This document shows positions 3,419 to 56,647 of a stretch of DNA of 64,000 nucleotides, in pieces. The notes under the pieces were generated by a model that was given only the letters and a program-made list of their open reading frames with translations, was not told where the DNA came from and did no database searches. Numbering within the stretch: position 1 is the first letter of the stretch; the number at the start of each line of letters is the position of its first letter. Position numbers and translations under genes: made by a program. Source of the stretch: Geodermatophilus telluris (GTDB lineage: Bacteria > Actinomycetota > Actinomycetes > Mycobacteriales > Geodermatophilaceae); NCBI RefSeq assembly GCF_900102745.1, contig NZ_FMZF01000006.1, forward strand, positions 93,559-157,558. The letters run 5' to 3'.

Positions 3419-9641
<6,223 letters not shown>

Positions 9642-9644
9642 GAG

Positions 9645-9702
9645 AGGACCACCCTCCCCCCACGCCTCGCTCCGCTCGGCGCGGGCCCCTGGAGGGTGGC
9701 CG
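9645..9702. terminator. Hairpin element A, terminator-like, one arm of an inverted-repeat pair
   Basis: This 58-base element begins 4 bases after the dimethylglycine oxidase stop. Its ends pair perfectly (CCACCCTCC with GGAGGGTGG) around an inner GC-rich hairpin. A second copy, reversed and 56 of 59 positions identical, lies at 10801-10859. It should end the sox-dimethylglycine oxidase transcript. Confidence 0.65.
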
Positions 9703-9803
9703 CCCCGGCCCGTCACCTCCGCCGGACCGGCGGGCGGCCCGACCACCGGGCGCCCGCCGGCCCGCGGCGTGCCCACCCGACCGCGCCCACTGGAGGACCG
9801 CCC

Positions 9804-9929
9804 GTGCGCACCGACACCCTCGAGACCTCCCTGGGGCAGCTCCCCGCCCGGGAGCCCGTCCCGGGCGGAGGGGCCACCGCCGCGCTGCTCCTGCGGCACA
9901 CCGTCGCGTCCGCGCGCGGGGCGTCGTGA
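9804..9929 (+). pseudogene. Truncated methenyl-THF cyclohydrolase/cyclodeaminase-like ORF (41 codons)
   Basis: A GTG with a good ribosome site (ggagg at 9792-9796) opens a 41-codon frame whose sequence TLETSLGQLPAREPVPGGG resembles the N-terminus of the formiminotransferase-cyclodeaminase family. That family usually continues for about 200 residues; here it stops after ATAALLLRHTVASARGAS. The missing function, methenyl-THF cyclohydrolase, would fit this one-carbon cluster, so a decayed gene is likely. The TGA overlaps the folP start (GTGA), so the surviving fragment may now serve to couple ribosomes into folP, which has no ribosome site of its own. Confidence 0.55.
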
Positions 9930-10795
9930 CCGGCACGGCGCTGGCGGCGGCCCCCCGCCCGACCGGGACCGCCGCGTCCCTGGGCCGGGCGCTCCGGACC
10001 CGGCGGCCCCTGGTCTGCGGCGTCCTCAACGTCACCCCCGACTCCTTCTCCGACGGCGGGCGCTTCCGCAGCTTCGACCGCGCCCTGGAGCGCGGGCTCA
10101 CCCTGGCGGCCGAGGGCGCCGACCTCATCGACGTCGGCGGGGAGTCGACCCGGCCGGGCGCGCGCCCGCCGACGCTCGCCGAGGAGCTGGACCGGGTGGT
10201 CCCGGTGGTCGAGGCCCTGGCCGGGCGGGTCGCCGTGCCGCTGTCGGTCGACACCTCCCGGCCCGAGGTCATGGGCGCGGCGGTGGCCGCCGGCGCCGGC
10301 ATGGTCAACGACGTACGGGCGCTGCAGCGGCCCGGCGCCCTGGCCGCGGCCGCGGAGCTGGGCGTGCCGGTGTGCCTGATGCACATGCAGCGCTCGCCGG
10401 AGACCATGCAGGAGGACCCGCGCTACCGGGACGTCGTCGGGGAGGTGCGCGCCTTCCTCGCCGGGCGGCTGCGGGACTGCCTGGAGGCCGGCATCCCCCC
10501 GGAGCACCTGCTGGTGGACCCGGGGTTCGGCTTCGGCAAGACGCTGGCCCACAACCTCGCGCTGCTGCGGTCGCTCGACGCGCTCACCGGGCTGGGGGTC
10601 CCGGTCATGGTGGGGCTGTCCCGCAAGTCGCTGCTCGGGCAGCTCACCGGGCGGGGCGTGGCCGACCGGCTGCCCGGCTCCCTGGCGGCGGCCGCCGTCG
10701 CGGTCCAGCGGGGCGCCACCGTGCTGCGCGTGCACGACGTCGCGGCCACGCGGGACGTCCTCGCCGTCCTCGACGCCGTCGGCTCGGTGACGTGA
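9926..10795 (+). CDS. folP: Dihydropteroate synthase
   Basis: A 289-residue TIM-barrel enzyme that joins 4-aminobenzoate to hydroxymethyl-dihydropterin diphosphate to make dihydropteroate for folate synthesis. The family motifs are present: GVLNVTPDSFSDGGRF, DVGGESTRPGA, SVDTSRPEV, CLMHMQRSPETMQ, VDPGFGFGKTLAHN, MVGLSRKSLLG and LRVHDV. The GTG start overlaps the stop of the preceding fragment. It stands alone, without folB, folK or folE beside it, in a cluster of folate-consuming demethylases. It may be a second, pathway-linked copy that raises folate supply, which is inference. Confidence 0.92.
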   Translation: MTGTALAAAPRPTGTAASLGRALRTRRPLVCGVLNVTPDSFSDGGRFRSFDRALERGLTLAAEGADLIDVGGESTRPGARPPTLAEELDRVVPVVEALAGRVAVPLSVDTSRPEVMGAAVAAGAGMVNDVRALQRPGALAAAAELGVPVCLMHMQRSPETMQEDPRYRDVVGEVRAFLAGRLRDCLEAGIPPEHLLVDPGFGFGKTLAHNLALLRSLDALTGLGVPVMVGLSRKSLLGQLTGRGVADRLPGSLAAAAVAVQRGATVLRVHDVAATRDVLAVLDAVGSVT

Positions 10796-10800
10796 TGGAA

Positions 10801-10859
10801 CGGCCACCCCTCAGGGGCCCGCGCCGAGCGGAGCGAGGCGTGGGGGGAAGGGTGGTCCT
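10801..10859. terminator. Hairpin element B, bidirectional terminator between folP and the GntR gene
   Basis: Inverted copy of element A, lying between the convergent folP and GntR genes. Relative to A it has a one-base insertion and two substitutions in the outer stem, yet the outer stem still pairs apart from one G-T wobble. This suggests selection for RNA structure. Confidence 0.7.
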
Positions 10860-11525
10860 TCAGATGACCGCGCGGATCGCCCGCTCGAACCCGAGCACGT
10901 GCTCGCGGGCGAGGTCGTCGGCCCGGTCGGCGTCGCCGGCGGCGATCGCGCGGAGCAGCTCGACGTGCTCCCCGACGTGCTCGTCGACCGAGGGCAGCCG
11001 GTCCAGGAACAGGCAGAAGATCCGCGTCGCCAGGTTGTCGTACCGGATCAGGACGTCCTCCAGGTGGGGGTTGCCCGAGGCCCGGTAGATGGCCCGGTGC
11101 ACCGCGAGGTCCCACCGCATCAGCTCGGTCCGGTCGGTCCGGTCGACGCGCAGGTGCTGGATGCTCGCGGCCAGCTCCTCGAGCTCGGCGGGCGACGAGC
11201 GGGCGGCCCGCTCGGCGGCACGCCGGGCAGCCAGCGGCTCGAGCTGGGCGCGGATGTCGGAGATGTGCGCCAGGTCGGAGATGTCCATGCCGGTCGCGAA
11301 GGTCCCGCGCCGCGGGTAGGAGACCACCAGCCGGTCGCCCTCCAGGCGCTTGAGCGCCTCCCGGACCGGGGTCCGGCCCACCCCGAGGTCCCCGGCCAGC
11401 TCGTCGTCGTCGATCGGGTCGCCGGGGCGGATGTCGAGCATGATCAGCCGGTCCCGGACCGCCACGTAGGCCTTGTCCGCCAGGGAGACGACGGACGAGT
11501 CGAGGTCCAGGGGGGCAGCGGTCAC
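10860..11525 (-). CDS. GntR-family transcriptional regulator, FadR subfamily
   Basis: A 221-residue regulator. The N-terminal winged helix (residues about 10-75) contains GVGRTPVREALKRLEGDRLV, the standard GntR recognition segment, and the rest is the all-helical FCD ligand domain (DLAVHRAIYRASGNPHLEDVL, EHVELLRAIAAGDADRA). The GTG at 11525 is preferred over the ATG at 11582 because the extra 19 codons are rich in codons rare here. It lies between folP and divergent sdaA. Matching palindromes before sdaA and glyA suggest that it represses both until a pathway metabolite binds. Ligand unknown. Confidence 0.88.
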   Translation of the reverse strand: MTAAPLDLDSSVVSLADKAYVAVRDRLIMLDIRPGDPIDDDELAGDLGVGRTPVREALKRLEGDRLVVSYPRRGTFATGMDISDLAHISDIRAQLEPLAARRAAERAARSSPAELEELAASIQHLRVDRTDRTELMRWDLAVHRAIYRASGNPHLEDVLIRYDNLATRIFCLFLDRLPSVDEHVGEHVELLRAIAAGDADRADDLAREHVLGFERAIRAVI

Positions 11526-11558
11526 GGACAGATCGTAGAGGGTGACCGCCGCAGGGTC

Positions 11559-11587
11559 TTGCCTCGTCGGAGCGAACGACATACCGT
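11559..11587 (+). promoter_or_regulatory. Predicted sdaA promoter
   Basis: TTGCCT at 11559-11564 and TACCGT at 11582-11587 are spaced by 17 bases. The expected start of transcription, near 11594, abuts the palindrome at 11597, the same geometry as at glyA. Confidence 0.5.
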
Positions 11588-11596
11588 GACGATACA

Positions 11597-11610
11597 TCTG
11601 ATATACCAAT
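11597..11610. promoter_or_regulatory. Predicted GntR operator before sdaA
   Basis: TCTGATATACCAAT matches the glyA-proximal palindrome in 12 of 14 bases, including the central TGATATACCA. It sits 9 bases after the predicted -10 of sdaA and in the divergent interval with the GntR gene, so it may also serve autoregulation. Confidence 0.65.
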
Positions 11611-11663
11611 CGTGTACCTGAACCTGGGGCGCAGACCGGTGACCGGGGGAGAGGGAGGCAGCG

Positions 11664-13037
11664 GTGACCATCAGCGCCTTCGACCTGTTCAAGGTCGGCA
11701 TCGGCCCGTCCAGCTCGCACACCGTCGGCCCCATGCGCGCGGCCTGCACCTTCGCCTCCCGCCTCCGCGACGAGGGGCTGCTGGGACGGGTCGCCGGGGT
11801 GCGCTGCGAGCTGTTCGGGTCGCTGGGGGCCACCGGGCACGGGCACGGCAGCGTCAAGGCCGTCGTCCTCGGCCTGGAGGGCGAGCAGCCCGACCTGGTC
11901 GACCCGGTCGCGGCCGAGCCGCGGGTCGACGCCGTCCGCCGCGAGGGGAAGCTCCTGCTCGCCGGCGAGCACCCGATCGCCTTCGCCGTCGACGACGACG
12001 TCGTGCTGCACCGCCGCCGGCGGCTGGAGTTCCACAGCAACGGCATGGTCTTCCGGGCCCTGGGCGCCGACGGCGAGGAGGTCGAGCGGCGCACCTACTA
12101 CTCCGTGGGCGGCGGCTTCGTCCTCGACCAGGACGACGCCGGCGAGCCGGCCCTCGTCGAGGACCCCACACCCGTCCGGTACCCCTTCCGCACCGGCGAG
12201 GAGCTGCTGGCCCGCACGCGGGAGACCGGCCTGCGGATCAGCGACGTGGTGCTCGCCAACGAGCTGGCCTGGCGCAGCGAGGCGGAGGTCCGCGCCGGTC
12301 TGCTGCACGTGTGGTCGGTCATGCAGGAGTGCGTCGAGCGGGGCACCCGCACCCCCGGCGTCCTGCCCGGCGGGCTCAGGGTCCGCCGCCGCGCCGCCGC
12401 GCTGCGCGCGCAGCTCGAGGAGCACCCGGACGAGGCCGACCCGCTGCGCGCGATGGAGTGGGTGACCCTCTACGCCCTGGCGGTCAACGAGGAGAACGCC
12501 GCCGGCGGCCGGGTGGTCACCGCGCCGACCAACGGCGCCGCCGGCATCGTGCCCGCCGTCCTGCACTACTACCGCGACTTCGTGGGGTCCTACGACGAGG
12601 ACGGCGTCGTCCGGTTCCTGCTCACCGCCGCCGCGATCGGGCTGCTGTTCAAGGAGAACGCCTCCATCTCCGGCGCCGAGGTCGGCTGCCAGGGGGAGGT
12701 CGGCTCGGCCTGCTCCATGGCCGCCGCCGGCCTCGCCGAGGTGCTCGGCGGGACGCCGGAGCAGGTGGAGAACGCCGCCGAGATCGGCATCGAGCACAAC
12801 CTCGGCCTCACCTGCGACCCGGTCGGCGGGCTGGTGCAGATCCCGTGCATCGAGCGCAACGCCGTCGGCTCGGTCAAGGCGATCACCGCCGCGCGCATGG
12901 CCGTGCGCGGGGACGGCCGGCACCACGTCCCGCTGGACAAGGCGATCAAGACGATGCGCGAGACCGGGGCCGACATGAAGGACAAGTACAAGGAGACCGC
13001 CCGTGGCGGGCTGGCGCTCAACATCGTCGAGTGCTGA
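11664..13037 (+). CDS. sdaA: L-serine ammonia-lyase (iron-sulfur type)
   Basis: A 457-residue single-chain serine deaminase that converts L-serine to pyruvate and ammonia. The beta domain starts with [20 protein letters not shown]. The alpha domain carries [20 protein letters not shown] and [19 protein letters not shown], whose cysteines include the ligands of the 4Fe-4S cluster. The GTG start follows a gagggagg ribosome site. It completes the route dimethylglycine to sarcosine to glycine to serine to pyruvate. It is 10 bases before purU and probably cotranscribed with it under the predicted GntR operator. Confidence 0.95.
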
Positions 13038-56504: not shown

Positions 56505-56552
56505 CGGCCGGTCGGGCCCAGCGGTCGGCCCCGCTGCAGATCCCCGGAGCGG

Positions 56553-56601
56553 CCCCGTCCGGAGGCTCGCCACGAGCTCGCGAGTGGTGAGGGGGACGGG
56601 G
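56553..56601. terminator. Terminator-like hairpin after EF-G2
   Basis: CCCCGTCC (56553-56560) pairs with GGACGGGG (56594-56601), enclosing a second stem, CTCGCCAC with GTGGTGAG (one wobble). A TAGCCT resembling a -10 follows at 56611-56616 before pgsA2. Confidence 0.7.
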
Positions 56602-56647
56602 TCGGTGAACTAGCCTCGGGCACGGTGTGCAGCGGGGTGGAGGAGCA

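Follow-up and report, generated by a model that had tools for sequence, protein, structure and literature searches.

Two nearly identical hairpins, inverted with respect to each other, lie on either side of folP in a 64,000-nucleotide stretch of the Geodermatophilus telluris genome (this whole stretch is called the window below). Are they the two ends of a cassette, a pair of terminators, or two separate members of a repeat family? The answer favoured here, with a probability of about 0.77, is that both belong to one family of palindromic repeats, short and non-autonomous, that works like REP elements.

The hairpin pair and its surroundings

The features of the window on which the argument turns are the following.

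7164–9641, plus strand: FAD-dependent oxidoreductase/GCV_T gene (dimethylglycine-dehydrogenase-like), ending in TAG; Pfam DAO, FAO_M, GCV_T and GCV_T_C, and gene call
9644–9719, plus strand: left hairpin copy; covariance model R1, 69.2 bits, and BLAST
9804–9929, plus strand: formiminotransferase-cyclodeaminase remnant of 41 codons; Pfam FTCD_C at E 0.009, a weak match that stays under the cut-off
9926–10795, plus strand: folP (dihydropteroate synthase); Pfam Pterin_bind, E 2.9e-82
10784–10860, minus strand: right hairpin copy, inverted; covariance model R1, 96.3 bits, and BLAST
10860–11525, minus strand: GntR/FCD regulator gene, ending in TGA; Pfam GntR and FCD
56533–56606, minus strand: third hairpin copy, divergent, of type B; covariance model R1, 47.8 bits, and gene context

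The first-pass annotation had described an inverted, near-identical pair of elements, each folding into a hairpin, with three differences that leave the outer stem paired apart from one G-T wobble. Alignment and folding of both copies confirm this description. Positions 9645–9702 and the reverse complement of 10801–10859 are equal in 56 of 59 columns, the exceptions being one 1-base gap and two substitutions, and a BLAST search of the genome with a 60-nt left-copy query retrieves the right copy at 95% over query positions 1–58 (E 1.5e-19). The likeness reaches beyond 59 bp: a repeat search on the window gives the pair as 66-nt arms of 88% identity, and the covariance model extends each copy to 76–77 nt, including a tail related to GTTCCAGCACGTCACC. 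This model comprises 21 rows, the right copy among them, and both copies or their close kin were used in finding the family. Compared with shuffled sequences, the fold energies of the two strands have z values of -1.1 and -2.0 for the left copy and of -2.9 and -2.8 for the right one; the hairpins of the pair are thus more stable than the shuffle mean, moderately and not extremely so. Nothing in Rfam matched within the window at the gathering threshold.

Each copy belongs to the gene outside it. The left copy begins 2 nt past the TAG (9639–9641) of the oxidoreductase gene, its owner, and the right copy begins on the final A of the TGA stop that closes its own owner, the convergent gntR-type gene. 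The third copy lies antisense, flanked by two plus-strand genes. It was also retrieved by a pattern scan for type B, with one mismatch, at G000:C4:150120–150149 (G000 is the label of the G. telluris genome itself, and C2 and C4 are contigs of it); the type B core occurs at 8 places in this genome with up to two mismatches.

The hairpin proper measures about 57 nt (AAGGACC ... GGCC) and is built of an outer stem, a conserved internal loop and an inner stem, with the consensus AAGGACC-N-CCCTGC-CCCCCAC...GCGGG-CCCCT-GCAGGG-N-GG-CC. A 16-nt 3' tail like GTTCCAGCACGTCACC, which brings the unit to 76–77 nt, was recognised in 46 of 91 copies of the own genome and in 137 of 196 copies of its relatives. 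In 64 of 92 distinct copies, one and the same pair is an A-C mismatch. Tandem part-copies with a 63-bp period lie at G000:C2:365557–365806, each of them beginning at the CCCCCC that precedes the inner stem.

Both sides have changed at 10 of the 21 pairs in the 21-copy alignment, which contains 43 doubly changed cells against 11.3 in shuffles, none of the 500 shuffles reaching 43. The paired differences had initially been read as a sign of selection on RNA structure, which is possible; they are also explicable by template-switch correction of palindromes. Among the 228 double changes counted over 92 distinct rows, 124 are of the transition type and 104 are transversion-type flips. Such flips do not pass through a wobble pair and are what template switching is expected to produce, so that paired changes in these hairpins are by themselves no proof of RNA selection. 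Template-switch correction of palindromes has indeed been argued to be able to maintain RNA stems (PMC8794818). The arms may stay complementary through such correction, through RNA selection, or through both. Assigning the RNA strand from wobble asymmetry (127 forward A-C cells versus 24 G-T cells) was abandoned, because two pairs (64, 24) dominate these counts.

Copy number, range and stop-codon register

That the element could be part of a repeated family, as the first-pass annotation had proposed, is fully supported by the genome. At least 144 matches to the model at E<=10, and at least 141 at E<0.01, were found among 150 scored candidates, and the genes at whose stop codons most copies sit are unrelated. 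About 140 copies is a rough lower bound, since the best 150 candidates were scored and tandem part-copies were counted. A BLAST search with the left copy retrieves 46 genomic places, itself counted among them. Two whole contigs, of 391,548 and 234,939 bases, hold 9 matches each, with densities of the same order.

As far as searched, the family is confined to Geodermatophilaceae. With at most the 67 best candidates scored per genome, the model matched 37 of 43 genomes of the family and none of 28 genomes from other families of the order. A scan of named genomes with one 21-base pattern returned at least 117 stretches; among the matches listed, 79 of 80 are from Geodermatophilaceae, with Geodermatophilus, Blastococcus, Modestobacter and Goekera among the genera. 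The pattern also matched one Streptomyces locus (L283), which has no model match and was taken as a chance occurrence. Copy number may differ sharply within a genus: in genus g11, genome G035 has at least 67 matches versus none in G066, and in genus g4, G028 has 4 versus at least 67 in G062. Such copy-rich and copy-free genomes within one genus would be useful for spotting a mobilising gene.

The position of the copies relative to genes was analysed from 422 nhmmer hits in fetched loci, reduced to 91 copies of the own genome and 196 of relatives once duplicates from overlapping loci, rows without a 5' end and hits below 25 bits had been dropped; genes were called with a simple codon-usage caller. 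The copy starts within -3 to +6 nt of a same-strand stop codon in 63 of the 91 own-genome copies and in 160 of the 196 copies of relatives. All 63 start between -2 and +3, and the other 28 are located elsewhere than at a stop. Uniform placement in 3' spacers of at least 10 nt would hit a 10-nt stop window 8% of the time. The two whole contigs, which were picked because they hold the folP locus, have 12 of 16 copies at a stop after removal of two partial hits, or 9 of 13 once the pair and its orthologue in G003 are set aside. Tailed copies are mostly found at stops (43 of 46 in the own genome, 119 of 137 in relatives), compared with 20 of 45 and 41 of 59, respectively, for untailed ones.

The identity of the stop codon also depends on the gap between stop and copy. 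Of the 63 host genes, 29 end in TAG or TAA, versus 36 of 339 genes on contig C4 (p 4e-10); the figure for host genes of relatives is 41 of 160, the background having been measured on contig C4 only. At gap 0, TAG accounts for 13 of 15 stops in the own genome and for 23 of 35 in the relatives. At gap +3, it is TAG in 9 of 9 own-genome cases, yet in only 7 of 15 in relatives. At gap +2, TGA prevails, with 27 of 30 and 84 of 84 cases. Filled genes were also compared with orthologues classed as empty, in comparisons that overlap, are not independent and are heavily weighted by the ssb site. Opposite a copy that forms TAA at gap -2, the empty orthologue has TGA in all 12 of 12 comparisons; opposite one that forms TAG at gap 0, TGA is found in 16 of 20; and for filled genes ending in TGA at gap +2, the empty orthologue has TGA in 101 of 127 and TAG in 26. 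Gap-dependent stop identity, together with TGA in the empty orthologues, suggests that the edge of the copy seemingly supplies the end of many stops, that is, their final one or two bases (T+AA, T+AG). A by-eye alignment of L197 with L193 likewise suggests insertion between the T and the GA of a stop. Among 221 host genes, 167 have a C just before the T of their stop codon, versus 208 of 339 in the background (p 5e-4), which is moderately above background.

Filled and empty sites, and the folP locus in relatives

Presence or absence of a copy at a given gene end varies between species. At the end of ssb, for which 19 of the 25 genus genomes searched gave loci to examine, a copy is found in 14 loci and is missing from 5, the own genome being among the latter. 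Where present, it sits inside the rpsF-ssb-rpsR-rplI row, between ssb and rpsR, as identified from the Pfam matches of one locus (L196). Rows of three to four hairpins of sub-families A and B are seen between ssb and rpsR in L204 and L207. At the end of the gntR-type gene, a match was found in 10 of 18 orthologous loci, two of them weak. Three loci with no match at this position (L137, L140 and L142) keep remnants that resemble a left arm by eye, so that some absences reflect decay of a copy and not a site that never gained one.

Many untailed copies are lodged in other palindromes. In L113, L116, L119, L122 and L323, such copies sit within the apical loop of another copy, in the same geometry each time. 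A second family of perfect palindromes (GTCCCACCCGAC ... GTCGGGTGGGAC) occurs at 9 places in the own genome (for example C2:517307-517338 and C4:197228-197259), and untailed copies lie in or next to several related stretches. Four paralogous DUF222-HNH genes (L091, L092, L093 and L110, around 2001-2076) share an untailed copy, which occupies the middle of a palindrome and replaces about 94 nt, part of the HNH region, of the intact paralogue L082. More generally, native sequence is missing from several filled sites, in amounts of about 13 to 94 nt. No clear target duplication was seen among 23 filled/empty pairs checked by eye, and no uniform empty site among the site comparisons. In some of these pairs, for instance those involving L237, L061, L115 and L308, the subject carries a copy or part of one and is thus no true empty site.

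The folP locus itself was compared across 18 orthologous loci. The pair does bracket the cyclodeaminase remnant and folP, as first described, and it had been suggested that its members could be the ends of a transferable or invertible cassette. Such a cassette would account for the bracketing, for the presence of folP in some relatives and its absence from others (intact in 10 loci, in pieces in 2 and absent from the 1.5-kb flanks in 6), and for three loci (L132, L133 and L144) in which folP is flanked by matches on both sides, two of them weak. The enclosed unit should then be gained or lost together with both ends, which is contradicted by the 18 loci, where the presence of folP and that of the copies are uncoupled. 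Among the 10 intact folP loci, L140 has no copy match, even with filters off, and L131 and L136 have the gntR-side copy only. Conversely, copies are found without folP (loci L129 and L130; genomes G003 and G006), and in G022 (L142) a copy follows folP itself. The roughly 140 other copies, mostly located at unrelated genes, also speak against a structure dedicated to folP. The cassette is therefore extremely improbable. This independent variation of folP and copies indicates that the pair corresponds to two separate gene-end copies; folP and the remnant lie between them because each outer gene bears its own copy at its end. Cyclodeaminase-like sequence adjoins folP in several relatives.

The G003 locus aligns with this genome up to a point within the left copy and again from the folP-facing end of the right copy onwards, so that the order is the DMGDH-like gene, a left arm only, then a full right copy. 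folP was either lost there or never gained, with one end of the event inside a hairpin. On a broader scale, one G003 contig covers little of the G000 contig.

Function, mobility and known repeats

The other half of the initial proposal, that the hairpins are terminators, fares less well than the notion of a repeated family. In a scan restricted to this pair, no terminator-like site was found in 8500–12000 and no T-run follows the hairpins. The gene that follows a stop-codon copy is on the same strand in 36 of 63 cases, close to the background of 214 of 346 measured on one contig (Fisher p 0.49), and in 24 of these 36 cases it lies within 120 nt. In relatives, the next gene is on the same strand in 111 cases, convergent in 44 and unassigned in 5. 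With the T-run absent and next-gene orientation at background, a dedicated intrinsic terminator is unlikely, and the copies inside the ssb-rpsR row led to the same rejection.

A broader version of this idea would have the repeats mainly selected and kept by the host as RNA elements of the 3' UTR, acting as terminator, exonuclease barrier or translation-coupled signal. The fixed orientation, the exact register to the stop codon, the strong conservation of pairing with double changes and the preference of the tailed form for stops are all in line with such a role. In addition to the terminator data, what tells against it is that species differ in whether the ssb-rpsR row contains a copy, that 104 of the 228 double changes fit template switching, and that many untailed copies sit inside other palindromes. 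Selection as RNA is hence considered quite unlikely as the main explanation. A more limited effect of the hairpin, as a block to 3' exonucleases or through an influence on transcription or translation termination, is possible.

The preferred reading, a family of non-autonomous mobile repeats, calls for a comparison with known systems, of which REP elements are the closest kind. REPs are described as high-copy extragenic palindromes located just downstream of genes (Di Nocera et al. 2013, PMC3733652), and the present family resembles them in its copy number and in its location mainly downstream of genes. It is unlike them in size and build, with about 76 nt and two stacked stems compared with a REP unit of 20-40 bp (PMC3733652), and in its orientation, which is fixed relative to the host gene. 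GTAG REPs often provide ORFs with their TAG stop (PMC3733652), a trait that the present family seems to share. The unpaired GTAG tag at one end of such REPs is rare here: GTAG directly precedes the hairpin, at -4 to -1, in 4 of 91 own-genome and 10 of 196 relatives' copies (within -8 to -1 in 7 and 12), and base counts show none. No RAYT (Y1) match was found in the 76 family genomes searched. Some REP families sit within other palindromes, and CGTC REPs have no dedicated transposase (PMC3733652). The latter have a CGTC or CCTC tag at one end; tail positions here read C, G, T and C in 51, 55, 55 and 60 of 93 copies, outside the stem and on its 3' side. The CGTC REPs have an 8-9 bp stem and a 4-5 nt loop, unlike the two stems and internal loop seen here. 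Given these differences in size, two-stem build, tag and Y1_Tnp, the hairpins are best called REP-like and are filed neither as GTAG nor as CGTC REPs. TnpAREP cuts at C|T beside a hairpin, and the stems of E. coli REPs hold conserved mismatches (PMC8266576). The C preceding the T of the stop and the recurrent A-C mismatch are reminiscent of these features, with the differences that the C excess is moderate and that Y1_Tnp is missing. The word Actinobacteria is absent from the main text of PMC3733652.

No paper on palindromic or hairpin repeats of Geodermatophilus or Geodermatophilaceae was found in the open-licence literature. Among actinobacterial short repeats, the MIRU of mycobacteria are inserted at stop codons in one orientation and carry a small ORF linking operon genes. 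The copies in Geodermatophilaceae differ from them in being hairpins.

How would such hairpins move? A search for PF01797 (Y1_Tnp, including RAYTs), the transposase family sought, matched 0 of 76 genomes of the family and 5 of 14 control genomes; in the genus it matched 0 of 19, and among the other families of the order 2 of 12. Since there is no PF01797 match, mobility is inferred from the distribution of the copies and from the site comparisons. Copies would spread as mobile DNA with a preference for palindrome loops and for the T of stop codons, and insertions elsewhere within genes would mostly be purged. The inserted hairpin would end up in the 3' UTR and there might act on termination or as a block to 3' exonucleases. 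A more specific form of this scheme, in which REP-like hairpins that are not moved by Y1 enzymes target the T of the stop and palindrome loops and replace the final stop bases, is put forward tentatively, its chances being well short of even.

Spread by replication template switching between hairpins, with no transposase at all, overlaps with the favoured mobile-repeat explanation as its possible engine. The negative Y1 search is compatible with it, and so are the many flips among the arm changes and a breakpoint common to the nested copies, the tandem copies and the G003 junction, which falls at the CCCCCC preceding the inner stem or close to it. It fits less easily with insertion at unrelated stop codons that, from base counts, share no flanking homology to guide a switch, or with a stop register seemingly too exact for random switching, and the transposase argument relies on the one family sought. 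This engine is regarded as unlikely.

Should the non-Y1, stop-targeting form hold, it would imply an undescribed hairpin-targeting enzyme, or mobility by template switching, in Geodermatophilaceae. If the mobile-repeat reading is right, on the order of a hundred genes in this one genome would end in copies of one mobile-looking hairpin, which often forms part of the stop codon. Such a family would then be a densely replicated natural experiment on the RAYT-free spread of palindromic repeats, as well as a natural test of the effect of a stop-codon hairpin on mRNA decay and translation termination.
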